Assembly (NCBI GenBank): GCA_951813395.1
Contig: OX638356.1
Coordinates: 475,340-539,339, forward strand
DNA length: 64,000 nt
DNA from: Longimicrobiales bacterium
GTDB lineage: Bacteria; Gemmatimonadota; Gemmatimonadetes; Longimicrobiales; Gaopeijiaceae
Direction: 5' to 3'
Positions 22,018 through 45,670 of the stretch are shown piece by piece. Under the pieces are notes generated by a model. The model saw only the letters and a list, made by a program, of their open reading frames with translations. It did not search any database and was not told where the DNA came from. Numbering within the stretch: position 1 is the first letter of the stretch; every line of letters starts with the position of its first letter. The position numbers and the translations under genes are program-made.

Positions 22018-22506
22018 ATGAAAACCACACAACGGCGTCGGGGGCATCGCAGCCTGCTCGGGACCGCAGTTTTTCTGGCGGTGGCGGTCGTGGGCGGTTG
22101 CGCGACCTACCAGCAGGCCACGGTCCCGGAACTGCCGCCCCAGCAACGGGTGCGGATGCGGCTGGCCGCGGATGAACTGGCCAGGAACATCGCATTTGCG
22201 AGTGGGAATCAGGGTTACGTCAACGGCCGTTTCGTGGAAGAGCGGGGAGACTCGGCCGTCTTCGTGCTGACGAGTTCCACGGGGTACCGCGAGGTGGCCC
22301 TGCCGGTGGACGCGATTCTGCAGCTGGAACGAAGGGACCCCGCGCAGGGCCGCAGCTTTCTCCTGTCGGTTGGGCTTGTTGGCGGCGTGGCGGCGCTGGC
22401 CTACTTCGGTTTCGAAGGCGATCCGGGCTCCGACACGGGTGGCGACGAAGATGCCGTCGACGCGCTGGTTCCGCTGATCCGATTCATGATCCCGGTGGGC
22501 AGGTAG
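22018..22506 (+). CDS. Hypothetical lipoprotein
   Basis: 162 residues. A signal with lipobox VVGGC is followed by a short Gln-rich start (TYQQATVPELPPQQ) and a compact beta-rich region (GNQGYVNGRFVEERGDSAVFVLTSS). A hydrophobic segment (SFLLSVGLVGGVAALAYFGF) precedes an acidic Gly/Asp-rich tail. ATG 22018 is chosen because it begins the signal peptide; frames open further upstream have no support. No family recognised. It sits just ahead of a SusC/SusD locus but has its own candidate promoter. Confidence 0.62.
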   Translation: MKTTQRRRGHRSLLGTAVFLAVAVVGGCATYQQATVPELPPQQRVRMRLAADELARNIAFASGNQGYVNGRFVEERGDSAVFVLTSSTGYREVALPVDAILQLERRDPAQGRSFLLSVGLVGGVAALAYFGFEGDPGSDTGGDEDAVDALVPLIRFMIPVGR

Positions 22507-22613
22507 GGATGGCATTCGCCCTGCCGCTACTTGCGGGATTGCCTGGTGCACAGATAAGTAGTCTTGGACGCGAAGGCCGCGTCTTTGTTGTTTCACCCCG
22601 ACATGGAGGCATT

Positions 22614-25600
22614 ATGTCCCCAGCAAACATCGGAAAGGCGGTCAGCCGGGCCGCCGCCACTCCCCTTCTCGCCGCAGCCTTGATGGTCGCGACGGTCCAG
22701 GCGCCCCTGGCGGCGCAGACCGGTACTATCACAGGCGTGGTGCGAAGCGTGACCAACGGGCAGCCCATCGCGGGCGCTCAGGTGTCCATCCCGGCGCTCA
22801 ACACCGGGATCCTGGCCAACAACGTGGGCCGGTACCTGCTCCAGAACGTGCCCGCGGGCACACACACGGTGCAGGTGCAGTACATCGGCTACTCGGCGTC
22901 GAGCGTGGACGTGACCGTTGCCGCGGACGGTGCCGTGATCCAGGACTTTGAACTGCGTTCGGAGGCGATCAGCCTTGAAGGCGTGGTGGTCACGGGGACC
23001 GCGGGCGCTGCCAGAAGGCGCGAGATCGGCAACTCGGTCAGCCAGATCAACGAGGAAGCGTTCCAGTCCGCGCCGATCCAGAACGTGGCCGACATCCTGC
23101 AGGGCCGTGCGCTGGGCGTGACGGTCCTGACCAACGGCGGGCAGGTGGGCGCCGGGTCGACGATCAAGCTGCGTGGCAACAACTCGGTGTCGTTCAGCAA
23201 CTCGCCGCTCGTCTACGTGGACGGTGTGCGGATTCGCGAACGCGGCGTGATCCATTCCGACGAGGCCAACCAGCAGACCAACCCCTTCGACGACATCAAT
23301 CCCGCCGACATCGAAAGGATCGAGACGATCAAGGGCGCCGCGGCAACGACGCTCTACGGCACGGAGGCTGCGGGCGGCGTGATCCAGATCTTCACCAAGC
23401 GTGGAGTCGCCGGGGCCCCGGCATGGTCGCTCACCGTCGACCAGGGTCTGAACACCCTCGGTCACATCGGGCCTGCTCCCGACGTCAACCCGACCGGGCT
23501 GGGGATGAACAACTGCAACTTCACGGGCGACTCGAACTTCCCCGGCGGAGATCCGCAGTTCCCCGCGGATCCGAGCTGTCCCGCGAGCGGTTCGTGGCTG
23601 AAGGACGGGTACCTGCAGAGCTACAACCTGTCGGTTCGTGGCGGCGCCGAGCGCATGAACTACTTCGTGTCCGCGAAATGGGGCGCCGAGGCGGGCGTCT
23701 TCGACACCGGCGTCGATGCCAACGGTGTGGCGCGTCCCGAGCAAGGCCAGGAGACCTGGAACATCCGCGGCAACTTCTCGTTCGCTCCTGGCGAGGACCT
23801 GGACGTTCGCTTCAACAGCTTCTATGCGCACCGCAACGTCACGTGGGTTCCGGACGGCAACAACGCCGAAGGACTGCTTCTCAACGTCTTCCGTGGCGGC
23901 GCCGACTACACCAACGACGAGGACGGCAAGCTCCTCGACATGGACATCACGAACATCAACGACCACTTCACCAGCGGCGTGAACCTCCTGTGGAACCCCA
24001 TGGAAGGGATGAACCACCGCCTGAACGCCGGGATCGACTGGGTTCGCAACGAGTACTTCGAGGAACGGCCCTGGGGTTACTTCTACGTCCAGGGCGGCAA
24101 TCGGGAAACCGATGAGCGGACTTTCCGGAAGCTCACGCTGGACTACGCCGGGACCATGGACCGAAACCTCTTCGGCCTTTCGTCGTCGACCTCGCTCGGA
24201 GGCCAGCTCTACAACGACTTCGTGACCGGCACCAACGGTTTCGGCGACGACTTCGCCGGCCCCGGCGCCAAGATCCTGCAATCCGGCGCAATCACGGAGG
24301 CGTTCGAGGTCAACAGCACCGTGACCAGCGGAGGCTTCTTCCTGCAGGAGGTCATCGGTTTCGGCGACCGGCTGTTCCTCACAGGTGGTGTGCGCGTGGA
24401 CGGGCACTCCGCCTTCGGGCAGGACTTCGGCCTTGAGACGTACCCGAAGGGTTCCTTCTCCTACGTCATCTCCGACGAGAGCTTCTTCCCGGCGAGCTTC
24501 GGCACGTTGAAGCTGCGTGGTGCTTTCGGCGACTCGGGCAAGGCGCCTGGGCTGTTTGACGCCGCCCGGACCTGGGCATCGGTGGCGGGCGACAACGGAC
24601 AGCCCGGCGTGACGCCAGACAACCTGGGCAATCCGGTTCTGGGTCCCGAACGCACACGGGAATGGGAACTGGGCTTCGAGGGATCCACGTTCGACGGCAG
24701 AATCGGCTTCGAGTACCAGTATTTCAAGCAGAACACCTTCGATGCGCTGATCCCGGTCACGCAGCTCCCGTCGGGCGGTTTCGTCGGCAGCCAGCTCGAG
24801 AATGTCGGAGAGGTGAGCAACGCGGGACACGAGGCGTTCGTGAATCTCGCGATGCTGACCTCCTCCCGGTTCAGTTGGGATGTGGGCCTCAGGCTTTCCA
24901 CGAGCGAGTCCCGGGTGCTGGACCTGGGCGATCTGGAAAACATCAACGTCGGCTGGCGCAACTACGTACGGGCACCCGTTGAGTGCACATCCGAGTTGTC
25001 CAACGGCGTGTCCTTCGACGGCAACGGCTTCATTGGCCAGGGCTGCACGGTTGGAGAACTCGTGTACTTTCCGCTTCCGGCCTTCTGTGAGGATCGGGTC
25101 CAGAACCCGGACGAAGTGGGCGCGGCCCCTCGTTACGCGGATCAGTGCCTGGGAACGACCACGCCGAAGTACACGTACGGAATCAGCACCACCATGACGC
25201 TTTCGCAGCGCCTGACCCTGGACGTTGTCGGCGAGGGGATGGGTGGACATTGGCTGTCTTCAGGAACCGCCTACCAGAACACGCGGCGGCGCGTGTGGCC
25301 CCTGTGCCGCTCTACCGTGGCAGCCATCGCGGAAGGACGGACAGACCAGCTGACGGCCGGCGAGCGAGCCCTCTGCGACCGCTCGGTCACGCGCTACGGC
25401 ATGTGGACCCAGCCCGCCGACTTCTTCAAGATCCGCTCGGCGTCGCTCAGCTTCCGGGTGCCGGAGGACTTCCTCCCGGGCCAGGTGCGGTCGGCCACGC
25501 TCCGCCTGCAGGGCAGAAACCTCTTCACCCGAACGGATTTCGAGGGTGTTGATCCCGAGGCCTTCGAGGACGGCTCCGCCGAAGTGCTCTTCCGGCAGGA

Positions 25601-25658
25601 GTATTACAACCTGCCGCCGATCCGCAGCTTCCTGCTGTCGGTTCAGGTCGACTTCTAA
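22614..25658 (+). CDS. SusC/RagA-type TonB-dependent outer-membrane transporter (copy 1)
   Basis: 1014 residues. The signal peptide ends at PLAAQ. A CarboxypepD_reg-like beta-sandwich (about 25-115) is followed by the plug domain, with LEGVVVTGT, LVYVDGVRIRERG and IETIKGAAATTLYGTEAAGGVIQIFTKRG. A 22-strand barrel ends in VQVDF. The ATG is preceded by GGAGG. SusC proteins import oligosaccharides or peptides together with a SusD lid, using TonB energy. SusD follows after 9 nt. The cargo is unknown; no glycan enzymes are adjacent, so peptides or other polymers are as likely as sugars. Confidence 0.93.
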   Translation: MSPANIGKAVSRAAATPLLAAALMVATVQAPLAAQTGTITGVVRSVTNGQPIAGAQVSIPALNTGILANNVGRYLLQNVPAGTHTVQVQYIGYSASSVDVTVAADGAVIQDFELRSEAISLEGVVVTGTAGAARRREIGNSVSQINEEAFQSAPIQNVADILQGRALGVTVLTNGGQVGAGSTIKLRGNNSVSFSNSPLVYVDGVRIRERGVIHSDEANQQTNPFDDINPADIERIETIKGAAATTLYGTEAAGGVIQIFTKRGVAGAPAWSLTVDQGLNTLGHIGPAPDVNPTGLGMNNCNFTGDSNFPGGDPQFPADPSCPASGSWLKDGYLQSYNLSVRGGAERMNYFVSAKWGAEAGVFDTGVDANGVARPEQGQETWNIRGNFSFAPGEDLDVRFNSFYAHRNVTWVPDGNNAEGLLLNVFRGGADYTNDEDGKLLDMDITNINDHFTSGVNLLWNPMEGMNHRLNAGIDWVRNEYFEERPWGYFYVQGGNRETDERTFRKLTLDYAGTMDRNLFGLSSSTSLGGQLYNDFVTGTNGFGDDFAGPGAKILQSGAITEAFEVNSTVTSGGFFLQEVIGFGDRLFLTGGVRVDGHSAFGQDFGLETYPKGSFSYVISDESFFPASFGTLKLRGAFGDSGKAPGLFDAARTWASVAGDNGQPGVTPDNLGNPVLGPERTREWELGFEGSTFDGRIGFEYQYFKQNTFDALIPVTQLPSGGFVGSQLENVGEVSNAGHEAFVNLAMLTSSRFSWDVGLRLSTSESRVLDLGDLENINVGWRNYVRAPVECTSELSNGVSFDGNGFIGQGCTVGELVYFPLPAFCEDRVQNPDEVGAAPRYADQCLGTTTPKYTYGISTTMTLSQRLTLDVVGEGMGGHWLSSGTAYQNTRRRVWPLCRSTVAAIAEGRTDQLTAGERALCDRSVTRYGMWTQPADFFKIRSASLSFRVPEDFLPGQVRSATLRLQGRNLFTRTDFEGVDPEAFEDGSAEVLFRQEYYNLPPIRSFLLSVQVDF

Positions 25659-25667: not shown

Positions 25668-27032
25668 ATGCGAATCATGAAAACGATGAATTCACGCCGG
25701 CTGTTCCTGGGTGCGCTTTTTGCGGCCCTGGCGACGTCCGGCTGCGATGAGAGCATCTTTGACGTCAAAAACCCCGGCCGGATTCTGGACGACGACCTGA
25801 ACACGGCCGCGGGCGTCAGGTCGCTGGTTACGGGGATGTCAGCCGACTTCTCTGTGGGCTACGATAATCTTTCCTTCACGACGGCCATCCTTTCCGACGA
25901 GATCGTCGGGTCGGGGAGCTATTTTTCCACGGGCCGCTATCGCAGGGGGCTCTTCGATTCCGAGGACGCCAACGGGTTCTGGGCGTCGGTCCAGCGGGCA
26001 CGCTGGGTGGCCGAGGCCGGACTTCTGCGCATGCAGGCCATCGAGGGCTACCAATACGACGGCAACGCGGAGACGGCCCGCGCTCACCTGTTCGGCGGAC
26101 TCGCCAACCGCTGGTTCGGCGAGAACTTCTGCCAAGTCGTGTTCAGTGCGCCCTATGACGAAGAGAATCCGGGTCCCGGTGGCGAGGTCGACACGGGCGA
26201 CGCCATGGACCGAAACGCCGCATTTCAGCGGGCGATCGCGTTGCTGGAGCGTGCAATTCAGCACGGTGGTTCGGCTGGGCGATCCGACATCGTTAGCGCC
26301 GCGGAGGGTGGCTTGGCCCAGGTATACATGGGGCTGGGTGACTTCTCCAGCGCGGTTGCCCGTGCCGCCAAAGTGCCTACGGACTTCGTGTTTGCCGCGT
26401 CGTACTCTTCCAATTCGGGCCGGGAAGAGAGCCAGATCTGGAACGAGACGCACGGGCGTCACGAAGTCTCGGCCTGGGGGACTCTGGCAGGTATCGTCGG
26501 CGCGGGCGATCCCCGCACGCCGTGGACGGACTGTTCGGCGCCGGGTAGCGGTTGCGCCAGCGGCAACGGGGCCGACGGTGAGACCATCCACTACCGTCAG
26601 GACAAATACCCGACCCGAGACGATGACATTCCCCTCGTCAAGGGCACGGAGATGCGCCTGATCGAGGCGGAGGCCGCGCTGATGGCCGGAGATCTTGCGG
26701 GCGCGATGGCCAAGATCAACGAGGTGCGCGCACATCACGGTCTGGACCCGGTCGAGTCCGACGGCACGATCGGCCAGATTACCGGCGGCGACGGCGGGGG
26801 CGCCAACATGACGTCGATGTCGGGTTGGGACATCCTCGACCGCGAGCGGCACCTGACCCTGTGGCTTGAGGGCCGGCGTCTTTGGGATCTGCACCGCTGG
26901 GACCATCCGCACCTGGATGGCGGTGGGGTGGTCTACATGGCGACGGTCGCGCGGCGGGCGTCGTGCATGCCGATTGCCCTGGACGAGTGCCAGGTGAACG
27001 ACAAGGTCTCCAGCCTGTGCATCAGCGTGTAG
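25668..27032 (+). CDS. SusD/RagB-type substrate-binding lipoprotein (copy 1)
   Basis: 454 residues. Lipobox ATSGC is followed by the family start DESIFDVKNPGRILDDDL. TPR-like helices and the C-terminal SusD signature region (ERHLTLWLEGRRLWDLHRWDHP) follow. SusD sits on the cell surface as the lid of the SusC barrel and binds the cargo first. GGAGA lies only 2 nt before ATG 25668, so the in-frame ATG 25677 may be used instead. Cys pairs near the end (CMPIALDEC) could form disulfides. Confidence 0.9.
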   Translation: MRIMKTMNSRRLFLGALFAALATSGCDESIFDVKNPGRILDDDLNTAAGVRSLVTGMSADFSVGYDNLSFTTAILSDEIVGSGSYFSTGRYRRGLFDSEDANGFWASVQRARWVAEAGLLRMQAIEGYQYDGNAETARAHLFGGLANRWFGENFCQVVFSAPYDEENPGPGGEVDTGDAMDRNAAFQRAIALLERAIQHGGSAGRSDIVSAAEGGLAQVYMGLGDFSSAVARAAKVPTDFVFAASYSSNSGREESQIWNETHGRHEVSAWGTLAGIVGAGDPRTPWTDCSAPGSGCASGNGADGETIHYRQDKYPTRDDDIPLVKGTEMRLIEAEAALMAGDLAGAMAKINEVRAHHGLDPVESDGTIGQITGGDGGGANMTSMSGWDILDRERHLTLWLEGRRLWDLHRWDHPHLDGGGVVYMATVARRASCMPIALDECQVNDKVSSLCISV

Positions 27033-27055: not shown

Positions 27056-27940
27056 ATGGATGGAACCGCCTCTCGGAGCACGTTGACCGGGGGGCGGTTC
27101 CGCTCTTCAGCGGCGCTTTGCCGCTGGGCCTTTGTGGGGGCGCTGGCGGCGTGGGTTGCCAGCGCCCCCGTCTACGCTTCGGCGCAGATCAGGGTGGAAG
27201 GCGAGGTCATTGATGCGGCGACCGGCCTGCCTGTCGCCGGGGCCATCGTCCACCTGCCGGATCTCGACATGGGCACCATATCGGACCAGCTCGGGTACTT
27301 CGTGCTCGATGCGATCCCTCGCGGTGTTCTAGTCGTCTCGGCCCACCGAGCAGGCTACGAAGCGATTGAGCAGGAAGTTCGCGTCGTGCCCGGCGAGCTT
27401 TGGGAGGTCCGTCTGACTCCGGCGGCGATTGAGATCCGGGGGGTTGAGGTGTCGGCCGCGACGAGTCAGGAGCTCGAGGCTGCTCGTACCGGCCGCCGGT
27501 CGGACTTCATTTCGCCGTCCGCAGTGGCCGAGGCCGCCGAGAGGACGAACAAGGTGCTGGAGGTGCTGAGGTCGAAGGCGCCGCCGCGGCTACGCATACG
27601 TCAGGAGGGGGGTGCCGGGGGCGTAACCTTCTGTATCGAGTCCTCGCGGCGCCGGCCATCGATACAGGAACTCGTCGACCGCGGTGACGGGTGCCGTCCA
27701 ACTCTTCTGGCGCTTGATGGCGTGATCATCTACGCGCCGCCATCGATGACCCTGGCCGGCATGCAGTCGCCGAGTCTGCCTGCGGACGTCGCCGCGCTGC
27801 TCCTGAACCAGAATCCGCAGGAAATCCGCAGCATCCGCGTCCTGTCGCCGGCGGATGCGTTCTTCCGCTATGGAGAAGCGGGCCGCTCCGGCGCGGTCGA
27901 GATCGTTTCCGTGCACCCGGGCAGGCCGAAGGGCAGTTGA
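27056..27940 (+). CDS. Secreted carboxypeptidase-regulatory / plug-like protein without barrel
   Basis: 294 residues. An N-terminal signal is followed by a CarboxypepD_reg-like fold (VEGEVIDAATGLPVAGAIVHL ... VSAHRAGYEAIEQ). A plug-like half follows, ending in IRSIRVLSPADAFFRYGEAGRSGAVEIVSV, which mimics the SusC 'IexIevlkGxxAxxlYG' element. No barrel is present. A central CIESS...DGC pair may form a disulfide. It is the third gene in the SusC/SusD run, so it may be an accessory periplasmic adaptor, but this is inference. The stop overlaps a possible TTG of the next gene. Confidence 0.66.
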   Translation: MDGTASRSTLTGGRFRSSAALCRWAFVGALAAWVASAPVYASAQIRVEGEVIDAATGLPVAGAIVHLPDLDMGTISDQLGYFVLDAIPRGVLVVSAHRAGYEAIEQEVRVVPGELWEVRLTPAAIEIRGVEVSAATSQELEAARTGRRSDFISPSAVAEAAERTNKVLEVLRSKAPPRLRIRQEGGAGGVTFCIESSRRRPSIQELVDRGDGCRPTLLALDGVIIYAPPSMTLAGMQSPSLPADVAALLLNQNPQEIRSIRVLSPADAFFRYGEAGRSGAVEIVSVHPGRPKGS

Positions 27941-27957: not shown

Positions 27958-29496
27958 ATGCGGCCGCTGCTCCTGCCGTGCGCCTCGGCGGCGGGGCTGG
28001 CGGCGTTTCTGTTGCACCCCGGGGTGCGCGGCGAACCGGCAGCCTTCTGGACGGTTGCCGCGGCGGTGGTCGGGATTCTCGTGTGGACGGGGTGGCTTTT
28101 CGTGTCGCGCCGGGAGCGCGGCGAGGACCTCACGCTGGAACTGGTTCTTCGCACGCCCCACTGGATGCAGACGCTGGCGCAGGGAGCGCTGCTGGTCTGG
28201 TGGGGCACCTACGTCGACATGGTGCGGCTGTGGGCGCCGATGATCCTCGCGCAGCTGCTGCTGGCGGTGGCTGTCGAAGGCCTCTTTGCGTTGACGCGGA
28301 GGGGCCGCTACGCGGCGGGGCTGGGCGTCGTGCCGGTGATTTTCAGCGTCAATCTCTTCCTGTGGTTCACCGGACCCTGGTTCTTCTTCCAGTTCGCGAT
28401 GGTGGTGCTCGTCTACGCCGGCAAGGAATTCATCCGCTGGCAGCTGGACGGTCGCTCGCGGCACATCTTCAACCCGTCCGCGCTGGCGCTTTCGGTGGCG
28501 GCGGTGCTGTTGATCGCGACCGGATCGACCGAAATCACACTCGGGATCGAGATCGCGCAGAGCCAGTTCATCCCGCCGCAGATGTTCCTGGTGATCTTCC
28601 TGGCCGCCGTACCCGCGCAGCTTCTCTTCGGCGTGGCGATGATGACCATGCCGGCGGTGCTCACGATCCTCGGCTTCGGTCTCCTCTACCAATCCCTGAC
28701 GGGGATCTACTTCTTCTACGACGCCTACATCCCCGTTTCGGTCTTCCTGGGCCTGCACCTCCTCTTCACGGACCCGGCTACCTCGCCCCGCACCGATGTC
28801 GGGCGGATCCTCTTTGGTCTGATCTACGGCACAGGCGTCGTCACCAGTGCCGCGCTGCTCGACGCGATCGGCGCGCCGAACTTCTACGACAAGCTGCTGC
28901 CGGTGCCGATCCTGAATCTGCTCGCGCCGCGGCTGGACTGTGCGGCCAACGCGCTGGGCGAGAAGCTGTGGGTGGCGGGCAGGCTGCAAACACCTGGAGG
29001 GGCGCGTCGCCGCGTAGCCACCGTCGCGGTGTGGGGCACGACCTTCCTGACCATGAGCGCCGCGGGTGGCGTCGGCGACAACCACCCGGGGCAGTACTAT
29101 CCGTTCTGGCGGGAGGCGTGCGAGGCTGGCAACGACCGGGCGTGCAACTACTCTGGCGTCATGCTGCAGAACTTCTGCGACCGGGGCTCGGGGTGGGGCT
29201 GCAACGAGTTCGGCGTGCTGCTGGTGACGCTGGACCGCGACTTCCTCGGCGCCGCACGCGAATTCGAGCAGTCATGCCGGCTGGAGTACGGGCCCGGCTG
29301 CGGCAACCTGCAGATGCTGGCGGACGGTGACGAACGTTTGGGGCAGGGGGTGAGGGCCTTCCAGCGGGGGAGACCGCCGCCGACCGAGTGGCCGATCGTC
29401 CTGATGGGCAGCAAGGGACCCGTCGCCGAGCGCGACCCGGAGGCGCTGCGGGCGCTGGGCTGTGAGCGGGGCTGGCGGGAACTGGGGTGTACGTGA
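27958..29496 (+). CDS. NqrB/RnfD-fold membrane protein fused to Cys-rich Sel1-like domain (copy 1)
   Basis: 512 residues. The N-terminal two-thirds is polytopic and matches the NQR2/RnfD/RnfE fold: FIRWQLDGRSRHIFNPSALALS and LHLLFTDPATSPRTDVGRILFG are diagnostic. I see no (S/T)GAT flavinylation motif, so covalent FMN is unlikely. After the last helix comes a Sel1-like, cysteine-rich tail (REACEAGNDRACNYSG ... FCDRGSGWGCNEFG ... QSCRLEYGPGCGNL) and a conserved end ERDPEALRALGCERGWRELGC. The start at ATG 27958 is set by alignment with the paralogue (MRPLL). TTG 27937 would overlap the previous stop. Function unknown. Confidence 0.75.
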   Translation: MRPLLLPCASAAGLAAFLLHPGVRGEPAAFWTVAAAVVGILVWTGWLFVSRRERGEDLTLELVLRTPHWMQTLAQGALLVWWGTYVDMVRLWAPMILAQLLLAVAVEGLFALTRRGRYAAGLGVVPVIFSVNLFLWFTGPWFFFQFAMVVLVYAGKEFIRWQLDGRSRHIFNPSALALSVAAVLLIATGSTEITLGIEIAQSQFIPPQMFLVIFLAAVPAQLLFGVAMMTMPAVLTILGFGLLYQSLTGIYFFYDAYIPVSVFLGLHLLFTDPATSPRTDVGRILFGLIYGTGVVTSAALLDAIGAPNFYDKLLPVPILNLLAPRLDCAANALGEKLWVAGRLQTPGGARRRVATVAVWGTTFLTMSAAGGVGDNHPGQYYPFWREACEAGNDRACNYSGVMLQNFCDRGSGWGCNEFGVLLVTLDRDFLGAAREFEQSCRLEYGPGCGNLQMLADGDERLGQGVRAFQRGRPPPTEWPIVLMGSKGPVAERDPEALRALGCERGWRELGCT

Positions 29497-29497
29497 C

Positions 29498-31033
29498 ATG
29501 CGTCCCCTCCTGGTGCCTGGCGCCGCCGCCGGAGTACTGGCCGCCTATCTGCTGATTCCGGGGGTGCGGGCCACGCCGGGTCTGCTCTGGGCATTCACGG
29601 GGTCGGCGGCTGGTGTGCTCGCCTGGACGCTCTGGCTTGCGGTGTCGCGCCGTCGCGCCGGGGAAGCTCTCGTGCTCGAGTTCCGGGCCATCAGACCGCA
29701 CTGGGTCCAGCTGCTGGCCCAGGGAACCGTCCTGGTCTGGTGGGGATGGTTCGTGCCCGCGGTCTATGAGTTCGCGCCATTCATCCTCGCCCAGCTGGTG
29801 CTCGCAGTGGCCGTCGAGGCGCTGTTCAGCTGGACGCGGCGCGGCAGCCATACGCTTGGGTTCGGGCCCGTCCCGGTCGTCTTCAGTCTGAATCTCTTCC
29901 TCTGGTTCGACCTGCCGTGGTTCTTCTTGCAGCTGGCTATGGTGGTGTTTGTGTACGTCGGCAAGGAGTTCATTCGCTGGCGGATGGGGGGGCGGTCGCG
30001 GCACATCTTCAATCCGTCGGCGTTCGCGCTGGCGGTGGCTTCGCTGGCGCTGATCGCGACCGGAACGACCGGAATCACGCAGGGCGTAGAGATCGCGCAG
30101 TCGCAGTACGTGCCGCCTTTCATCTTCGTGGTGATCTTCCTGGCGGCTCTACCGGGGCAGCTGCTCTTCGGTGTTGCCACCATGACGATGCCCGCGGTGG
30201 TCACTATCTGGGGGTTCAGCGCCGCGTATCTCGCGGTTACCGGCGAGTACTTCTTCTACGACGCCTACATTCCGATCGCGGTGTTTCTGGGGCTGCACCT
30301 ACTCTTTACCGATCCGGCGACGTCACCGAGGTCCGAACTCGGCCGTGTGCTCTTCGCCGTACTCTACGGGAGTGGAGTCGTCGCCAGCGTCTTCGCGCTG
30401 AACGCGGTGGGGGCGCCGCCCTTCTACGACAAGCTGTTGCCGGTGCCGATCCTCAACCTGCTGGCGCCGACACTCGATCGGACGGCCGACGCGCTCGCGG
30501 GGCGATTGGGGATCGCGTGGGCGGCCGGCCGGGAGGCCGTGCCGGCGCGGCGGCGGGTCGCGACGGTGGGGCTCTGGGCCGCGGTCTTCGCCACTCTCAG
30601 CATCACTGGCGCGCTCGGCGACAACCATCCCGGCCAGTACTACCCGTTCTGGCGGGACGCGTGCGAGGCGGGCAGCGTGCGCGCGTGCGACTACACGGGC
30701 GTCATGCAGCAGAGCTTCTGCGACCGTGGCTCCGGTTGGGCCTGCAACGAATTCGGCATCCTGATGGCCGAGACGGACCGGGATTTCCGGGGCGCCGCGG
30801 GCGAGTTCGACCGCGCGTGCAGGCTGGGATTCGGGCCCGGGTGTGCGAATCTGCAGGCGCTCATGACAGGGAACCCGGACGTGGCCCGGCCCGGCGCGCT
30901 GCAGCGGGACCGGCCTCCGCCCGGCGACCTGCCCATCGTGCTGCGCGGCAGCAAGGGCCCGGTCACCGAGCGAGACCCGGAGGCGCTCCGCGTGCTTGGG
31001 TGCGAGCGGGGCTGGCGGGAGCTGGGGTGTTGA
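29498..31033 (+). CDS. NqrB/RnfD-fold membrane protein fused to Cys-rich Sel1-like domain (copy 2)
   Basis: 511 residues, a tandem paralogue of the preceding gene with the same architecture throughout. Shared blocks include FNPSA, FFYDAYIP, GLHLLFTDPATSPR, FYDKLLPVPILNLLAP, GDNHPGQYYPFWR and FCDRGSGW-CNEFG. ATG 29498 lies one base after the first copy's TGA, so both are translated from one message. Again there is no (S/T)GAT motif and no other Rnf or Nqr subunit nearby. The Cys-rich tail should lie outside the cytoplasm if its disulfides form. Function unknown; a role tied to the SusCD locus is inference from position. Confidence 0.75.
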   Translation: MRPLLVPGAAAGVLAAYLLIPGVRATPGLLWAFTGSAAGVLAWTLWLAVSRRRAGEALVLEFRAIRPHWVQLLAQGTVLVWWGWFVPAVYEFAPFILAQLVLAVAVEALFSWTRRGSHTLGFGPVPVVFSLNLFLWFDLPWFFLQLAMVVFVYVGKEFIRWRMGGRSRHIFNPSAFALAVASLALIATGTTGITQGVEIAQSQYVPPFIFVVIFLAALPGQLLFGVATMTMPAVVTIWGFSAAYLAVTGEYFFYDAYIPIAVFLGLHLLFTDPATSPRSELGRVLFAVLYGSGVVASVFALNAVGAPPFYDKLLPVPILNLLAPTLDRTADALAGRLGIAWAAGREAVPARRRVATVGLWAAVFATLSITGALGDNHPGQYYPFWRDACEAGSVRACDYTGVMQQSFCDRGSGWACNEFGILMAETDRDFRGAAGEFDRACRLGFGPGCANLQALMTGNPDVARPGALQRDRPPPGDLPIVLRGSKGPVTERDPEALRVLGCERGWRELGC

Positions 31034-31604: not shown

Positions 31605-32063
31605 CTATGCTACCAGGCGGAGAGGAGGTGCGGAGCTAGGCGGGTGCTCGTCCTCCTTTTCATCGGCTCCGCAACGCGGACGGAAGAGTGGCGGCTCTTC
31701 CGCAATCTGTGGCTCGGTCCAGAACCTGACCGGTTGTGAGCGGCCCAACTCGATGGTCTGGTCGTCTACCGAATTGAAAACTGACGCGGTTAGTTCCTCC
31801 AGGCGGATCTCCGCTCGCATCTCGCAGGCAAATGCCAGCGATGCCAAGCTCCGGAGGGTCATGTTTCGGGATCCGCTGAGGAGCTGGGTGATGTTGGCGC
31901 GACTGGTGCCCAGCTTTTCCGCCACCTCAGCCCGCGTGAGGCCCTGTTCGTCCATAGCCTTCCAGATTGCCTCTGTGGTCCAGAGGATCAGCCGCTCTTC
32001 CTCGTAGCGCCTGCGGGCCTCCGGGGTCTCCGTCTGTCGCTTGATCCAGGCCTCGTTCGCCAC
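31605..32063 (-). CDS. XRE/HigA-type antitoxin with extended C-terminal tail
   Basis: 152 residues. An N-terminal helical stretch is followed by a HTH_XRE domain (about 42-66: LTRAEVAEKLGTSRANITQLLSG), which should bind the operon promoter. A tail from about residue 95, rich in Pro and acidic residues with a central aromatic patch (VRFWTEP) and FRPRCGADEKEDE, is longer than in ordinary HigA. That is where chaperone-addiction sequences sit in known TAC antitoxins. The GTG start follows the toxin TGA without a gap and AGGGAG lies 8 nt upstream, so toxin and antitoxin are coupled. Confidence 0.82.
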   Translation of the reverse strand: MANEAWIKRQTETPEARRRYEEERLILWTTEAIWKAMDEQGLTRAEVAEKLGTSRANITQLLSGSRNMTLRSLASLAFACEMRAEIRLEELTASVFNSVDDQTIELGRSQPVRFWTEPQIAEEPPLFRPRCGADEKEDEHPPSSAPPLRLVA

Positions 32064-32429
32064 TCATCTCTCCCTGTTCTGCTCGAACTCTCTCTTCATG
32101 CTGATTGCCCTGCGGATGTCCTTTCTCGGCAGCTTGTCCGACTTTTTCCGGACTCCGAAGGCCAGAATCAGATCTCCGCCGGCGTAAAAGCACGGTATCC
32201 TGATCTGCCCACTCTTCACCTCGAATACGCCATCCGTGTCCCGCAGTTTCCTGAACTGGGTTCGGCTCCGAACGCCCTGTCCGTCCCCCAGCATTTGAAA
32301 AATCACATCAAGCTTCGTGCGCTCACGTGGCGTTAGCTCATCCAGGAAATCCCCTGCGGGGCAGCGCCCGCTCGACCGAACCATGCAGGTGACTGTGAGT
32401 CGTTGGCCCTCATATTCTGGAGGTCGCAC
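32064..32429 (-). CDS. HigB/RelE-superfamily toxin (Gp49-like)
   Basis: 121 residues. The core shows the RelE-like pattern: VRSSGRCPAGDFLDELTPRERTKLD near the start, a strand pair LRDTDGVFEVKSGQIRIPCFY, then LILAFGVRKKSDKLPRKDIRRAISMKREF. That is the ending typical of HigB/Gp49 mRNA interferases. They cleave mRNA at the ribosome when the antitoxin is lost. GTG 32429 gives the full N-terminal strand; ATG 32384 would remove it. It is first in the operon, before antitoxin and chaperone, the same order as the mycobacterial HigB-HigA-SecB-like module. Confidence 0.82.
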   Translation of the reverse strand: MRPPEYEGQRLTVTCMVRSSGRCPAGDFLDELTPRERTKLDVIFQMLGDGQGVRSRTQFRKLRDTDGVFEVKSGQIRIPCFYAGGDLILAFGVRKKSDKLPRKDIRRAISMKREFEQNRER

Positions 32430-32597: not shown

Positions 32598-35243
32598 CTA
32601 CCCCTTCGGCTGATCCCCCTGCAACTCCAGGATGTCCACGTTCCACTGGCTGTCGCCGAGCAGGTGCTTCACGAAGTACTCCGCGCGGAGCCAGAACCAG
32701 TAGTTGCTCATGTTTCCGAAGCCGTGGCGCTGGCCGGGGAAGATGAAGAAGTCGAAGCGCTTGTTCGCGCGGATCAGCGCCTCGGCCATGCGGAAGGTGC
32801 CGGCGTGGTGGACGTTGTTGTCCACGTCCCCCGTCGTGAGCAGCAGGTGACCCTTCAGGTTCGCCGCGATGTCCGAGTTCCGGTCGATGTCGTACTCGAA
32901 GCCCGTGACGGCGCCGGTTGAGTCCTTTACCTCCTTGACCCCGTCGTGCTTCTCCGACCAGTTGGCGTTGTAGACGTCGTTGTTGTGGTTCCCGGCTGAC
33001 GAGACGGCCACCTTGAAGAAGTCGGGGTAGACGAGCATGGCCGCGGTGGACATGAAACCGCCGCCTGAGTGCCCGTAGATCCCCACGCGGTCGATGTCGA
33101 TGAAGCCGTGGCGGTCGGCGAGCTGCTCGATTCCGGCCTTCTTGTCGGCCAGACCGTAGTCGCGGAGGTTCCCGTACCCGTAGTTGTGGTACCACTTCGA
33201 GCGGTCCGGGTGACCGCCCCGGTTCCCGATCGTGATGACAATGAAGCCGAACTGCGCGAGCGCCTGCTCCGTCGTGTTGAGCGAGAACGACTTCGACACC
33301 GATTCGGTCTGCGGCCCGGGATATACGTACGCGATGATCGGGTACTGCTTCGCGGGATGGAAATCGTATGGCTTGTACATGACTCCGTAGATATCCGTTA
33401 CCCCGTCGTCGGCCTTCACCTGGTAGGTCTCGGGGTACTGGTATCCGGCCGCCTCCAGCGCCGACAGATCGGCGGTCTCCAGGTCCATGATCCTGCGTCC
33501 GGACGCGTCGAAGAGCGCCGAGGCGGGGTTGGTGTCGACGCGTGAATAGTTGTCGACGAAGTAGCGCGCGGATTCCGACACGACGGCCTGGTGGTCCTGG
33601 TTGCCGGGGTTGAGGAGCGTCAGGCCGCTGCCGTTCAGGCCGACGCGGTACATGTGCATGTAGTACGGGTCCTCGCCCTCCTCACGTGCGTTGGCCCGGA
33701 ACACCGCGTATCCGTCCTCCTCATTCACTCCCATCAATGCGTCGACGTGCCAGGGGCCTTCGGTAAGACGAGTGCGGACCGTTCCGTCCGGCGCGTAGCG
33801 GTACAGGTGCGCCCACCCGTCCCGTTCCGACCACCAGATGAGGTCCCCGCCCTCCAGGCGGCGAGGCGTCTGGTGCTCCACGTACGTGTTCAGGCGCTCC
33901 TCGATCACGGCGGCGACCTCGCCGGTCGCAGGATCGGCCCTCATCACGTCCACCCGGTGCTGGTCGCGGCTGCGGCGCCAGAAGTAGAGCTCGTTGCTGC
34001 TGTCCGACAGCCACTTCGTGATGTTGGGCTCGTCGCTGCCCCCTCCGCCCCCGCCGAAGAAGAAGAACCCGCCGCCGCCCTGTCCCGGCGCGTTGAAGAT
34101 CCCCATGCGCTGGTCCTTCCAGGGATCGTCGTCGATCTGCGTCATCTCGCGCGATTCCATGTCGAAGGCGTGGAGGCTGGTCTGCGTGACGTTCTCCTCG
34201 CCCGGCATCTCGTACCGGTAGCTCTCCAGCTTCGGCCGCGTGTTGCCCACGGCGTGGACGACCCACAGATGGCCCACTTCACGGCGGTCCTGGCGGGTGA
34301 GCGCGAAGTAGCGGGAGTCGTGCGACCACGTCGCCCCCGACCGCTGGCGCTTCTTGAGCTCCTCCTCGGTCTCCTCGTCGTTCTGGCCGCGTCCCTGAAA
34401 GCCCCAGCTGAAGTCCTTCTCACCGTCGGTGGTCAGCTGGATCTCCTCGACCTCCACGTCCTCTTCGGCTTCCTCGGCCTCGTCACCGGACTTGCCCCGG
34501 CGCGCGTCGACGATCTTCATGTACTCCTCGTAGCTCATCATCCACAGGTTGAATTCGCGGCTGAAGACGACCCAGGCCGTGTCCGGCGAGACGCTCGCCC
34601 AACCGGGGTGGCTGTCCGGCTCCTCGTAGTCCTCGAGCTCGCGGAGCGTGCGCGTCGTGACGTCGTACTCGAAGTGGTGGACCCTCTTGCGCGTCCTGGG
34701 CCTGGGCGGGCCGCGCTGCTCGTCCTCCTGGTCTTCCTCGACGTCCTCTTCGTCGTCCTCTTCCTCTTCCACCTCCTCGTCCTGCGAGGACTCCACGTCG
34801 AACTGGATGGTGTTGGGTCCCGTGAAGCGGATGGCGCGGATCGGCAGGTGCTGGGCGTCCCACGGATCCCGCGTGATGCGGGTCAGCTCGGCGGCGATGC
34901 GGTCGTTGTCGAAGATCTCGGTCTTCGTGCCCTGGCCCGGATCGACGAGGTAGAAGTGTCGGCCTTCCGAAGTCTCCCACTCGTACCAGAAGCGGTCCGT
35001 GTCCTCGATCCAGCGCGGCGCGACGCGCAGCGAATGGACCAGGTCGTTGACCTTGTAGGGGGCGAAGCGGGCCGCCAGCTCGAAGTTGGCCGAGCCGGGT
35101 CCTCCGACCTTGACCGAGCCCTCCTCCTGGGCGGCAACGGGATTGGTTGCGGCCCCGAAGGCCAGGAAGGCCGTGGCGAGGAAGCCCATCGCAAGCGCGA
35201 GGGGCAGGCTGGAACTCGGACGGGTTACGGTGCGGCGGATCAT
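32598..35243 (-). CDS. Secreted S9 family peptidase (DPP-IV-like), copy A
   Basis: 881 residues. The signal peptide ends at PVAAQ. An N-terminal beta-propeller (DPPIV_N) precedes an alpha/beta-hydrolase peptidase domain. The catalytic triad is Ser726 (GHSGGG), Asp808 (GDVDNNVH) and His840 (QRHGFG). Two low-complexity insertions interrupt the propeller: a run of about 25 mostly Asp/Glu residues (about 151-176) and a Gly/Phe-rich loop (GQGGGGFFFFGGGGGGSDEP). Such enzymes remove dipeptides from peptides in the periplasm or medium. ATG 35243 has GGAGG upstream. Divergent from another S9 peptidase. Confidence 0.92.
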   Translation of the reverse strand: MIRRTVTRPSSSLPLALAMGFLATAFLAFGAATNPVAAQEEGSVKVGGPGSANFELAARFAPYKVNDLVHSLRVAPRWIEDTDRFWYEWETSEGRHFYLVDPGQGTKTEIFDNDRIAAELTRITRDPWDAQHLPIRAIRFTGPNTIQFDVESSQDEEVEEEEDDEEDVEEDQEDEQRGPPRPRTRKRVHHFEYDVTTRTLRELEDYEEPDSHPGWASVSPDTAWVVFSREFNLWMMSYEEYMKIVDARRGKSGDEAEEAEEDVEVEEIQLTTDGEKDFSWGFQGRGQNDEETEEELKKRQRSGATWSHDSRYFALTRQDRREVGHLWVVHAVGNTRPKLESYRYEMPGEENVTQTSLHAFDMESREMTQIDDDPWKDQRMGIFNAPGQGGGGFFFFGGGGGGSDEPNITKWLSDSSNELYFWRRSRDQHRVDVMRADPATGEVAAVIEERLNTYVEHQTPRRLEGGDLIWWSERDGWAHLYRYAPDGTVRTRLTEGPWHVDALMGVNEEDGYAVFRANAREEGEDPYYMHMYRVGLNGSGLTLLNPGNQDHQAVVSESARYFVDNYSRVDTNPASALFDASGRRIMDLETADLSALEAAGYQYPETYQVKADDGVTDIYGVMYKPYDFHPAKQYPIIAYVYPGPQTESVSKSFSLNTTEQALAQFGFIVITIGNRGGHPDRSKWYHNYGYGNLRDYGLADKKAGIEQLADRHGFIDIDRVGIYGHSGGGFMSTAAMLVYPDFFKVAVSSAGNHNNDVYNANWSEKHDGVKEVKDSTGAVTGFEYDIDRNSDIAANLKGHLLLTTGDVDNNVHHAGTFRMAEALIRANKRFDFFIFPGQRHGFGNMSNYWFWLRAEYFVKHLLGDSQWNVDILELQGDQPKG

Positions 35244-35394
35244 TCCTGGCCTCCGTTGGGTGGGAAGCGGCGTGGGTGGCGCCGAGTGGCGCACCATACC
35301 GTGGACACGCATCTTCGCCGAATTGATTGTGGGTCGGTCTGGCGGGCCGAGGCCGACCGCGAGTGCACCGAAGAGAAATGGGAGACTTTGCGCG

Positions 35395-37761
35395 ATGGTG
35401 CAAGCGAAGACCGGTATCGTTCTGATGTGTCTCGGCGTGGTGGCGGCGGTCGCTCAGGCCCAGGAACCGCCGTCCCGTCCCGTTGTCACCGCGGCCGACT
35501 ACGCCCGCGCGGAGCAGTTCCTGCCGGGCAACGCGGTTCGCCACCTGACCGGCGTGCCGACGGGCCCGGCGACGTGGGTCGGCGAGACGGATCGCTTCTG
35601 GTACCGGGTGCGCACGGCGCACGGGGAGCGATTCATCCTGGTCGACCCGCGGGCGCGCACACGTCGCGAGGCATTCGACCACGGGCGGCTGGCGGCGGCG
35701 CTGTCGATGGCGGCGGACACCGCCTACGATCCGCGCGCGCTGCCGTTCTCGTCGTTCGAGTTCCTGGGCGATGGCGGCGCGGTGAAGCTCGATGTCGGCG
35801 CGGCAAAGTGGCGCTGCTCGCTCACCAGCTACACCTGCGACGAAAGGGACGCATCCGCGGAATTCGGTCCCGCCGAGCTCGCCTCGCCCGACGGGGCCCG
35901 CGCGCTCTTCACCCGCGACCACAACCTGTGGGTGAGGGCGGCGGGAGAGGAGCACGGAACGCAGCTTACCCGGGACGGAGAACGCGACTGGGACTACGCA
36001 TCGTCGCCGGAGGGGAACACCTCTGCCGTGACGATCCGGCGCTTCGGGGTTCCCGTGCCGCCCGCCGCGCTCTGGTCGCCGGATGGGAGCCTGGCCGCCA
36101 CGCATCAGCTGGATCAGCGCGGCGTCCTGGAGATGCACCTGGTGCAGGGCGCCCCGGAGGACGGCTCGAAGCGTCCCCGGCATTACGCGTACAAGTACGC
36201 CCACCCGGGCGACACGATCATCCCGCTGGCCCACATGGTGATCGTGGACACGGAAGCGGGCGTGGACACCGAAATGAGCGCGGTCACGCGGCTGGACGCG
36301 GATCCCCTCATTTCCGTCTTCCAGTCGCCCATCGCGTTCCAGAACGTGTGGTGGGCGGCGGACGGATCGGCCCTCTACGCCCTGCGCTTCACAAGAGGAG
36401 ACAAGGCCGTAAGCCTGGAGGCCGCCGACCCGGCAACGGGCGCTGTCCGTACCGTCATTGCCGAGACATGCGCCACGTATTGCGAGGCCACTCCGGCGCT
36501 GGGGTCACGGCCCAACGTGCGCGTGATGGGGGGCGGCGACGAAGTCCTGTGGTGGTCCGAGCGGGACGGATGGGGTCACCTCTACCTGTACGACGGGCGC
36601 ACCGGAGAGCTGAAGCGCCAGGTGACGCGCGGACCCTGGCTGGTGCGGCGGATTCTCCACGTGGACGAACAGACGCGGACGGCGTTCTTCACCGGCAGCG
36701 GCCGCGAAGGCGGCGATCCCTACCTGCGGCAGCTGTACAGCGTGGGACTGGACGGCGGTCCGGTGCGCCGCCTCACGCCCGAGGACGCCGACCATATGAT
36801 CACGGCCAGCCCTCGCGGGGACTACTTCGTCGACACCTTCGGCCGGATCGACACCGAGCCGGCAACGGTCCTGCGCGACCGGAGCGGCGCCGTCGTGATG
36901 ACGCTGGAGACCGCGTCGCTTGAGGGTCTGCGGGCCCTGGGCTGGAGCCCGCCCGAGGCGGTGGTCACCAAGGCGCGCGACGGCGCGACGGACCTGTACG
37001 GCCTGATCGTCAAGCCGACCGGCTTCGATCCCCACGCCGCCTACCCCGTGATCGACTACGTGTACCCCGGACCACAGACCGCCTGGGTTCCGAAGAGCGT
37101 CGCGGATCCCATGTCGAGAGTCCTGTGGGATGCCCAGGCGACGGCGGAACTGGGGGCCGTGGTGGTCGTCCTCGACGGGCTCGGAAAGCCCATGCGGTCC
37201 AAGGCCTTCCACAACTACTCGTACGGCAATCTGCAGGATGCCGGGGGTCTGGCGGATCACGTGGCGTCCATGAAGCAGCTGGCGGCGTCGCGTCCGTGGA
37301 TGGACCTGGACCGGGTCGGCGTCTACGGCTTCTCGGGCGGCGGCTACATGTCCACGCACGCCATCCTGACCCAGCCGGACTTCTACAGGGTGGCGGTCTC
37401 CGGGGCCGGCAATCACGACCAGCGCGGCTACATCGCGCTATGGGGGGAACGCTATCACGGGCTCATGGACCCGGACGGCGCCAACTACGTTCAGCAGGCC
37501 AACGCCACCCACGCGGCCAACCTGAAGGGCAAGCTTCTGCTGATCCACGGCGAGATGGACGACAACGTGAGCCCGGCGCTCACCATGCAGGTGGTGGACG
37601 CGCTCATCAGGGCGAACCGCACGTTCGACATGCTCATCCTCCCGAACCTGAATCACGGGGCGGGCGGCGATCCCTATTACATTCGCCGGCGCTGGGACTA
37701 TTTTGTCGAGCACTTGATGGGGGCGGAGCCGCCGGTGGACTACCGGGTGGTTCCGTCGTGA
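35395..37761 (+). CDS. Secreted S9 family peptidase (DPP-IV-like), copy B
   Basis: 788 residues. The signal peptide ends at AVAQAQ. The propeller and peptidase domains are as in copy A but without the acidic insertion. The triad is Ser647 (GFSGGG), Asp722 (HGEMDDNV) and His754 (LNHGAGG). Two extra Cys pairs (RCSLTSYTC, ETCATYC) suggest disulfides. ATG 35395 is preceded by GGGAGA. It shares an upstream region of about 150 bp with copy A, so the two may be co-regulated; it probably acts on peptides outside the cytoplasm. Confidence 0.92.
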   Translation: MVQAKTGIVLMCLGVVAAVAQAQEPPSRPVVTAADYARAEQFLPGNAVRHLTGVPTGPATWVGETDRFWYRVRTAHGERFILVDPRARTRREAFDHGRLAAALSMAADTAYDPRALPFSSFEFLGDGGAVKLDVGAAKWRCSLTSYTCDERDASAEFGPAELASPDGARALFTRDHNLWVRAAGEEHGTQLTRDGERDWDYASSPEGNTSAVTIRRFGVPVPPAALWSPDGSLAATHQLDQRGVLEMHLVQGAPEDGSKRPRHYAYKYAHPGDTIIPLAHMVIVDTEAGVDTEMSAVTRLDADPLISVFQSPIAFQNVWWAADGSALYALRFTRGDKAVSLEAADPATGAVRTVIAETCATYCEATPALGSRPNVRVMGGGDEVLWWSERDGWGHLYLYDGRTGELKRQVTRGPWLVRRILHVDEQTRTAFFTGSGREGGDPYLRQLYSVGLDGGPVRRLTPEDADHMITASPRGDYFVDTFGRIDTEPATVLRDRSGAVVMTLETASLEGLRALGWSPPEAVVTKARDGATDLYGLIVKPTGFDPHAAYPVIDYVYPGPQTAWVPKSVADPMSRVLWDAQATAELGAVVVVLDGLGKPMRSKAFHNYSYGNLQDAGGLADHVASMKQLAASRPWMDLDRVGVYGFSGGGYMSTHAILTQPDFYRVAVSGAGNHDQRGYIALWGERYHGLMDPDGANYVQQANATHAANLKGKLLLIHGEMDDNVSPALTMQVVDALIRANRTFDMLILPNLNHGAGGDPYYIRRRWDYFVEHLMGAEPPVDYRVVPS

Positions 37762-37801
37762 GGGTTTCACGGATGGCTGTTGCGGAACGAACCCCTTGCA
37801 G

Positions 37802-37816
37802 TTGTATACAATATTG
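37802..37816. promoter_or_regulatory. Overlapping palindromes upstream of SusC copy 2
   Basis: TTGTATACAA (37802-37811) and CAATATTG (37809-37816) are perfect palindromes that overlap. They lie 90-105 nt before the SusC start in an AT-rich patch. A -35-like TTGCGG (37780-37785) precedes TATACA (37805-37810) with a 19-bp spacer. Possible promoter or operator. Confidence 0.4.
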
Positions 37817-37906
37817 AGTACGTACCCATTGCGGGCTTGCGAGACGTTGGCCTATCTTGCCATCCCGTTGAAGCAGGAGTCTCACCCACACTCAAAGGAG
37901 AATCCC

Positions 37907-40900
37907 ATGAGACGAAGCTTCCGTTTGAATCAGCCCACAGGACGTTTGTGGGGGCTCGCCGCCGCAGGTGTGGCGGGCTTCGTGGCCCTGGCGCTGACCG
38001 TTGCGCCGCTGGCCGCGCAAAATACCATCACCGGCACGGTCGTGGACGGCGGCACCCAGCGCCCCCTCGCCGGCGCGCAGGTGCTGGTGGAGGGGACCGA
38101 TCTCGGCGTCCTCACGGACAACCGGGGCCGCTTCCTCATTCTCAACGTGCCGGCGGCCACGGTAACCGTGCGGGTTGTGATGATCGGCTACCGTGAAGCC
38201 ACGGCCAGCGCGGGCAGCGGTCAGGCGGTCACCATCGAGCTGCAGGAGACCGCGATTTCCCTCGACGAAATCGTGGTCACGGGGGTGGTCGGCGAGCAGT
38301 CAGCCCGGGCGGTCGGCAACTCGATCGGCCAGGTCAACGCGGCCGAGCTCGAGGAGCTGGCGCCGGCCGCGGATGTGCAGCGCATGATCAGCGCGACCGT
38401 ACCCGGGGTGCGCGTTTCCATGGCCGGTGGCGAGATCGGCGCGGGCGGCTCCACCCGGATCCGGGGGGTCGCCAGTCTCTCGCTGGGCGCCCAGCCACTC
38501 GTGTACGTGGACGGCGTTCGCGTGAATGGGCAGGAAAGCAACGCCGCCTTCGGCTGGTACGCCTTCAACGGCAACTCGCAGCCTTCGCGCCTCTCCGACT
38601 TCAACCCGGATGAGATCGAGAGCATCGAGATCATCAAGGGACCCGCGGCGGCGACGCTCTACGGAACGGAGGCCTCCAATGGCGTGATCCAGATCATCAC
38701 CAAGAGGGGCCGGACGGGTGCGCCGCGGATCAACTTCACCATGAAGCAGGGCGCGAACTTCTATCCGAACGTCTACAACATGTTCCCCGAATCGTGGTAC
38801 ATGTGCGAAGGCGTGTCCCAGACGGCGGATGTGGATGAACGACTGAAGTGCCAACCGGGCAGCGTAGCTTCCTTCAATGTCCTCCAGATCGACCGCGACG
38901 TGTACGGCAACGAGTGGTTCCAGACCGGCCACGCGCAGTCGTACGGGGCAGACGTCACGGGTGGCACCCAGCAGATCACATACTATGTCTCGGCCGACTG
39001 GGACCGTGACGAGGGCGTCGTCTCGTACAACTGGAAAAACCGCATGAGCGGACGGGCCAATCTGACCTACACCCCGTCCGAGAGGCTGGAGCTGAACTTC
39101 GGCCTGGGTGCGATCCGCAGCCAGGCGCAGTCGGCGTCGGCCCAGCAGGCACTGCCAACGGCCATCATCTGGGCCTGTCCCTCGCCGGGCTGTGAAGCGG
39201 GTTCAGGGAAGCCCAGCGACATCGCCGGTGGGTTCCGGGGCTACATCGCCTACCTGCCCGAGGCCTACGAGGAAGACATTGAAGGCTTCCAGCATGTGGA
39301 TCGCACGACGTTCTCGCTCGAAGCGCGTCACGAACCCTTCGAGTGGCTGACGCACCGGGCCATCGTGGGCGGCGACTTCAGCGGCGTCAGGAACTCCGAA
39401 CTCTATCGTGCGACCGGCCGTCAACCCGCCGGGCAGTTCACGCCCTGGGGACGCAAGACGATCATCAACCTCAACACCAGCTACTTCTCGATCGACTACC
39501 AGGCGAACGGCATCTTCGATTTCGGAGGCATGACCTTCACCAGCTCGGGCGGCCTGCAGTATTACCAGCGGCAGGAGTCGTCGACGTTTGCGCACGGCGA
39601 GACCTTCCCGGTCGACGCACTCGAGACGGTTTCGTCGGGCGCGACGAAGCAGGCCGAAGAGGATTTCCTCGAGAACAAGACCTTCGGCGTGTTCATGCAG
39701 GAACAGGTTGCCATGGGCGACCGTCTCTTCCTGACCGGCGCCGTGCGTGGAGACGACAACAGCGCGTTCGGCACGAACTTCGACTTTGTCGTGTATCCGA
39801 AGCTGTCGGCATCATACGTGATCAGTGACGAGCCGGCCTTCCAGGACATGCTGCCCGGGGTCAACACGCTGAAGCTGAGGGCGGCCTGGGGGAAAGCCGG
39901 TAAGCAGCCGGATGTCTTTGACGCGATCCAGACCTATACGCCCACGGTGGGTCCCGAAGGTGCTTCGGTCCTAACTCCCGAGAACATCGGCAACCCGGAC
40001 CTCAAGCCCGAGGTCGGAACCGAGATCGAGCTGGGCTTCGATGCCGGCCTGATGGACGACCTGATCGGCCTCGAATTCACGGTCTACAGCCAGACAACGA
40101 ACGACGCCCTGGTCCGTGTGCCCGTCATTCCCTCGAAGGGCTTCCCCGGAGTCCAGTTCCGGAACATCGGGCAGATCAACAACAAGGGCATCGAGGTGGG
40201 GATCAACGGGCAGGTGTACAACTCCGGCGCCTTCAGCGTGGATCTGGGGGCCACATTCTCCACCTTCGAAAACGAGGTCACCGACCTCGGAGGTCAGCCT
40301 CCGATCGTCCAGAGTTCTTCGAGCCTGAACCGGCAGTTCCACGTCGAGGGCTTCCCGCTGGGGAGCATGTTCTACAAGCGCGTGGTCAGCGCGCAGCTCG
40401 ACGGCTCCAGCGGACGCAACGTCGCGACGAATCTCATGTGCGAGGGTGGCGAGAAGGCCGGCGACTCCGACTTCTCGTGGGGAGGCGGTTCGCCCGTTCC
40501 CTGCGCCGACGCGCCGGAGGTATACTGGGGTCAGCCGATTCCCAACGTCGAAGGCGGCATCTACACGAACCTGCGCATCGGGCAGAACCTGTCGCTGTAT
40601 GCGCTGGTCGACTATGTGGGGGGGCACCACCTGAGCCTGGGAGACGTCAGCGCGCAGCATCGTTTCTTCATCAACTCCAGGGCCATCCTCGAACGTACGG
40701 ACCCCATTCTGCTGGGGTATGAGGCACTCGGTGCCGGGGGCCTCGCGCAGTCGGGCGTCGTGGCAGGCGACTTCGTGAAACTGCGGACGCTGTCGGCTTC
40801 CTATACAATGCCGGAATCCGTTGCCGAGATGATGTGGGCCAGCCGGGTCGCGATCACGGCTTCGGTCGACAACCTGTGGACGATCTGGCAGAAGTCGAAG

Positions 40901-41035: not shown

Positions 41036-41053
41036 ATCACGGGAGAGATGAAA

Positions 41054-42388: not shown

Positions 42389-42389
42389 T

Positions 42390-42414
42390 AATCGGCCGGA
42401 AGGAATCGGCCGGA
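42390..42414 (+). repeat. Short direct repeat
   Basis: AATCGGCCGGA occurs twice (42390-42400 and 42404-42414), right after the SusD stop and before the terminator hairpin. Each copy holds the palindrome CGGCCG. Confidence 0.5.
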
Positions 42415-42425
42415 GGAGGTGTTTT

Positions 42426-42464: not shown

Positions 42465-42522
42465 CAATAACTGCGACGTGGCGAACCACCACCGGGCAAC
42501 CAGTTCAACAAAGGAGAATCAC

Positions 42523-45654: not shown

Positions 45655-45670
45655 GGAAAGGAGCAGAACG

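Follow-up and report, generated by a model that had tools for sequence, protein, structure and literature searches.

The closest described relatives of the proteins studied here are the UnbU-type orphans, stand-alone NqrB/RnfD-like cores that carry the signature HxxNP[ST] and [TS]DPxT, lack a flavinylation motif, and are paired with a secreted protein. UnbU itself is presumably the membrane component that goes with UnbV/CRTAC1 proteins in the enediyne UnbL/UnbU/UnbV cassette. The Helicobacter Hcp proteins (HcpC, 1ouv; HcpB, 1klx), which have Cx7C pairs and a Sel1-type profile, are the nearest counterpart of the tail described below, although they are secreted and not fused to a membrane protein. 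In NqrB, a member of the RnfD/NqrB family (PF03116), riboflavin is held by T162, N200, and D346 together with backbone groups near G198, A205, and F342 (PMC10643135), and a resemblance to Amt/Rh and urea transporters has been remarked for NqrB and RnfD themselves (PMC10643135, PMC9588780). The two-subunit Nqr/Rnf-like complexes include an NAD-binding domain in the cytosol as well as an NqrC/RnfG-like partner that is flavinylated, and their NqrB/RnfD-like subunit is without a conserved flavinylation Thr (PMC8238504, PMC10979944); a non-covalent flavin has been suggested for this subunit (PMC10979944).

Herein, we analysed a window of 64,000 nucleotides, the whole stretch of DNA, from a genome assembled as a single contig (4.09 Mb, 97.9% complete) with about 18 SusD genes. 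Two tandem genes in it encode proteins that join an RnfD/NqrB-type membrane core to a cysteine-rich tail. The pair and the genes before it are as follows.

22018..22506, + strand: small lipoprotein-like gene at the head of the putative operon, kept across the genus
22509..25658, + strand: SusC-type outer-membrane transporter, same putative operon as the pair
25668..27032, + strand: SusD/RagB lipoprotein, same putative operon as the pair
27056..27940, + strand: plug-like secreted protein directly upstream of the pair, with a CarboxypepD_reg domain and a SusC-like plug but no barrel
27958..29496, + strand: copy 1 (P0001-type), 512 aa, RnfD/NqrB-fold membrane core with a predicted disulfide Sel1-like tail (ORF with ATG at 27958 and stop at 29496)
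28462..28479, + strand: HIFNPS motif of copy 1, with His in place of NqrB N200 and Asn matching NqrB N203 (motif alignment)
28768..28788, + strand: TDPATSP motif of copy 1, with Asp matching NqrB D346 of the riboflavin/sodium site (motif alignment)
29077..29493, + strand: tail of copy 1, four Cys pairs, HcpC/Sel1-like, predicted periplasmic
29498..31033, + strand: copy 2 (P0002-type), 511 aa (ORF with ATG at 29498 and stop at 31033)
30002..30019, + strand: HIFNPS motif of copy 2
30308..30328, + strand: TDPATSP motif of copy 2
30620..31030, + strand: tail of copy 2, Cys 389/397, 408/416, 441/449, and 502/511, matching Sel1 folds in VIA-align (Z about 8.5)

The preliminary description had pointed to two adjacent homologous genes behind a SusC/SusD pair and a plug-like protein, and this arrangement held: both ORFs are real, the coordinates fit, the copies are about 66% identical, and SusC, SusD, and the CarboxypepD_reg plug-like gene lie upstream on the same strand. 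The stop of copy 1 and the ATG of copy 2 are spaced by 1 nt, as in several orthologous pairs; a longer ORF of copy 2, from GTG 29462, is also present. Further downstream, 31605-32429 on the minus strand holds an HTH-type gene and a RelE/HigB-like gene that read, from their sequences, as a toxin-antitoxin pair. Two divergent peptidase genes of the S9 type (DPP4-like by sequence reading) follow the pair at 32598-37761, an adjacency kept in the genus, and two more tandem SusC/SusD pairs occupy 37796-47044.

At the sequence level, the cores resemble RnfD/NqrB under the cut-offs of both Pfam and NCBIfam. PF03116 matched copy 2 with an E value of 4.8e-5 and 23.3 bits against a cut-off of 27.7 bits, and copy 1 with an E value of 0.5, while TIGR01946 (RnfD/NqrB, NCBIfam) gave 15.4 bits against a cut-off of 207 bits. 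The NQR2/RnfD-type fold proposed earlier was borne out by an AlphaFold2 model of copy 2, built from a 21-sequence alignment (pLDDT 77.6, with low confidence around residues 163-167 and 255-257). In VIA-align, core residues 63-342 of this model matched RnfD with a Z of 19.4 and NqrB with a Z of 18.6, whereas Rh (Z 13.1), AmtB (Z 12.9), and urea transporters (Z 9.9) scored under both, within the helical-bundle range. No conserved Cys was present in the core among 82 sequences, which rules out a DsbB/DsbD-like cysteine electron relay through the membrane.

Besides the fold, the window proteins share with RnfD/NqrB the NP and TDP half-helix motifs. Riboflavin contacts were mapped by motif alignment at about 15% identity, and the family was aligned with UnbU/RnfD sequences by motif-anchored MAFFT. 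The HxxNPS and LxTDP motifs of the family would correspond to those of NqrB because the spacing of GxNxxNPA and FMATD fits the NqrB residue numbers. The Asn of NPS and the Asp of TDP were each found in 82/82 tailed relatives, and the Na+-site residues Asp248 and Asn124 of RnfD match the invariant Asp272 and Asn172 of the family. At the position of NqrB N200, His was present in all tailed relatives (82/82), 8/8 UnbU-like proteins, and 2/2 DUF2330-linked orphans; UnbU of Streptomyces and an RnfD-like protein of Metabacillus have it as well.

The window proteins differ from RnfD/NqrB in the flavinylation machinery. The loop with the flavinylated SGAT-type Thr was a gap in 82/82 relatives in the joint alignment; Thr194 (ITxG) is invariant and falls within the linker that holds SGAT-type motifs elsewhere, but the FMN-Thr column itself is gapped. 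Neither ApbE, FMN_bind, nor a further PF03116 protein was detectable in the whole window genome (G000), and ApbE and FMN_bind were likewise lacking in two other near-complete family-bearing genomes (G021 and G047). Since the loop is missing throughout and these three genomes are without ApbE and FMN_bind, covalent flavinylation is ruled out in them. These results agree with the earlier remark that the pair lacks both the flavinylation motif and neighbouring Rnf/Nqr subunits; none stood beside the pair, and no rnf/nqr operon occurred in the surveyed neighbourhoods. A separate NQR operon was present elsewhere in the genome in six of the other genomes examined. The C-terminal NAD-binding domain PF00175 had no match in the window proteins, and the system has neither this domain nor the flavinylated partner of the Nqr/Rnf-like complexes. 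Because the Asn and Asp of the riboflavin/sodium site are invariant, a non-covalent flavin or ion site in the core is possible, and the non-redox use suggested earlier is hypothetical.

The tail was also described correctly as Cys-rich and Sel1-like. By family profile, residues 375-511 matched HcpC (1ouv) with an E value of 9e-11 and HcpB weakly, the tail of the AlphaFold2 model matched Sel1-repeat structures in VIA-align, and one relative (L194) matched PF08238. Eight Cys form four CxnC pairs (n = 7; n = 8 in the last pair) that are kept in 80-81/82 sequences. Unlike the Hcp proteins, the window proteins have only about three repeats, placed after the membrane core. Arginine clusters lie at 51-53, 114-115, 160-168, 278-283, and 345-353, and an extra hydrophobic helix preceded by RRR separates core and tail. 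Considering the positive-inside rule, these clusters and the subsequent helix would place the tail in the periplasm, where disulfides can form.

The tailed family is widely distributed among Gemmatimonadota and Acidobacteriota, being present in 53/298 sampled Gemmatimonadota genomes and, with strong matches, in 23/297 genomes sampled from the phylum to which the Acidobacteria record L046 belongs. The tree separated clade A, which contains the window proteins and both Gemmatimonadota and Acidobacteriota members, from clade B. In clade A, the genes of the window's genus follow the plug-like gene and SusCD. Among the other clade-A Gemmatimonadota, SusD was within 7 kb of 5/18 loci against 0.52 expected (Poisson P about 2e-4, or P = 0.009 when the highest SusD density seen is used), a distance limit that was picked after data inspection; gene order and orientation vary among these loci. 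Acidobacteriota members of clade A are often beside DUF6152 genes and an unnamed secreted family. In clade B, a secreted protein of the FGE-sulfatase fold directly follows the gene in 22/27 rows and is fused to it in one (L090), which gives 23/27 by neighbourhood reading, as the automatic tree label had overlooked L096, L157, and L201. Thus, the proposed association with SusCD recurs in several clade-A lineages but is lineage-limited, the sister clade pairing with the FGE-like protein and the Acidobacteriota with DUF6152 genes.

The clade-B partner shares the PF03781 fold with FGE-sulfatase-fold lipoproteins (GldK/PvdO/EgtB-like) but falls under every functional cut-off; its best NCBIfam score was to GldK, far under the cut-off. 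It is absent beside the window genes. In L157:10533-11447 and 20 homologues, it has its own nearly invariant Cys pair, usually CPEC, whereas to our knowledge typical FGE proteins have none at that place. PQQ dehydrogenase (c6) and NHL genes were seen near several loci, but they look like abundant families and were given no weight here.

Two basal tailed members, L155 and L194, have FG-GAP/UnbV_ASPIC proteins as neighbours, although no UnbV/CRTAC1 gene adjoins the pair in the window. At L155:10699-13083, directly upstream of the Sel1-tailed protein, SCO1/SenC, FG-GAP repeats, and UnbV_ASPIC are fused in one protein. Tail-less NqrB/RnfD-like proteins of about 280 aa from Acidobacteriota are located directly downstream of FG-GAP/UnbV_ASPIC genes (L202-L208), and another adjoins DUF2330 (L212). 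These cousins match plasmid proteins annotated as "RnfABCDGE type electron transport complex subunit D" beside CRTAC1, or as "enediyne biosynthesis protein UnbU" beside a VCBS-repeat protein and a type I PKS; the enediyne link is drawn from these plasmid annotations and the UnbL/UnbU/UnbV cassette. Because HxxNP[ST] and [TS]DPxT are common to the window family, the tail-less cousins, and the plasmid proteins, whereas NqrB has NxxNPA, we read the window pair, from its sequence, as a tailed branch of the UnbU-type orphans. In the tree, the tailed proteins form their own clade, whose deep join to the tail-less cousins is on long branches and weakly supported. The window proteins differ from the UnbU type by three additional helices, two N-terminal and one C-terminal, and by the predicted disulfide Sel1 tail, and their neighbours are SusCD and the plug-like gene. 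Orphan cores of this kind are known; we found no description of the Sel1-tailed branch, nor any paper naming both Sel1 and RnfD.

Other orphans have neighbours of different kinds. On a Metabacillus plasmid (L216:3330-4717), an RnfD-like orphan and a redoxin-domain gene overlap at the end of the latter, which may reflect a redox pairing in the UnbU-type superfamily, and two orphan NqrB/RnfD-like genes lie beside molybdenum-hydroxylase (Ior-like) gene pairs at L153:591-5162 and L191:7889-12168.

We tentatively favour, with a little less than even confidence, a one-subunit conduit of the inner membrane whose periplasmic tail docks an exported partner. In the core, the HxxNPS and TDPxTSPR half-helices preserve the polar centre of NqrB/RnfD, while the flavinylated loop is lost; the extra helix after RRR would bring the C-terminal tail into the periplasm, and there four disulfides may brace a short Sel1-type solenoid. 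This arm would dock a secreted or outer-membrane partner, namely the plug-like protein and SusCD in the window, the FGE-like protein in the sister clade, and UnbV/CRTAC1 proteins in the basal members and tail-less cousins, and the core would serve that partner as a transmembrane conduit. Electron exchange with the quinone pool via a non-covalent flavin would be the first choice of activity, ion flow through NqrB-type half-channels the second, and scaffolding the third. The redox-type genes near some orphans (redoxin, SCO1 fusion, and molybdenum hydroxylase) speak in favour of such a conduit. Against it, the SusCD, plug-like, and FGE-like partners have no evident redox cofactor, and with the periplasmic FMN relay of NqrB/RnfD lost, no full route for electrons can be traced from riboflavin to the periplasmic side.

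If no redox cofactor is involved, the core might be an ion or small-solute channel or energiser, with the periplasmic tail or its partner acting as the gate of the NqrB/RnfD half-channels. The fold shared with Amt/Rh and urea transporters, the matched Na+-site residues of RnfD, and the operon of the window, which is without a redox partner, are all consistent with this. However, fold resemblance is no proof of function, the half-channels of NqrB need redox gating, and some orphan relatives adjoin redox-type genes, so we regard the channel as rather unlikely.

An assembly or maturation factor is likewise improbable, if only slightly more so. Here the core would be mainly an anchor, and the Sel1 arm would retain or mature secreted partners. 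Sel1 repeats are protein-binding modules, and all recurrent partners are exported, one of them being fused to the tail (L090); yet partners of the same kind accompany the UnbU-type cousins that have no tail, and the invariant buried polar residues of the core exceed the needs of an anchor. Very doubtful, too, is a reading in which a single-subunit NqrB/RnfD descendant would use ion flow or quinone redox in the inner membrane and, by way of a disulfide-braced periplasmic arm, drive or gate the outer-membrane SusCD importer or another exported partner independently of TonB-ExbBD.

The preliminary description had gone further and suggested a non-redox protein pair, possibly a heterodimer, serving the SusCD importer. 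A tandem pair with a short spacer, placed in the genus right after the SusC, SusD, and plug-like genes, would suit it, as would the excess of SusD near the other clade-A loci. But the tandem arrangement is confined to one subclade, which is part of the window's genus; most family members are single-copy, including those in other genomes of the same genus within the same SusCD operon, and the sister clade and Acidobacteriota members have other neighbours. Moreover, at L042:10007-11542 a chimera stands alone, with a core closer to copy 2 (89.5% vs 73.8%) and a tail closer to copy 1 (79% vs 71%). Read from its sequence, the chimera is evidence of recombination between tandem copies, and recent duplication with recombination would explain the pair better than an obligate heterodimer, which the single-copy relatives and the lone chimera speak against and which we consider very unlikely. 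Finally, that the proteins are a remnant of, or a subunit detached from, a true Rnf/Nqr complex is hardly credible and can be ruled out, since, for all the likeness in fold, no rnf/nqr genes stand beside any surveyed member, ApbE and FMN_bind are lacking in G000, G021, and G047, the signature differs from that of NqrB in 82/82, and the family is strongly conserved across two phyla.

Stand-alone proteins of the NqrB/RnfD fold are usually annotated as subunit D of an RnfABCDGE-type complex, which wrongly implies an Rnf complex; the HxxNP[ST]/DPxT signature separates the orphan family from true RnfD/NqrB. Time and again the fold occurs together with exported partners (UnbV/CRTAC1, DUF2330, FGE-like, SusCD/plug, and DUF6152), and some of the genomes concerned have no flavinylation machinery at all. 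The tailed branch bears on the long-standing question of the role of UnbU in enediyne cassettes, for which its fused periplasmic arm may provide a testable system.
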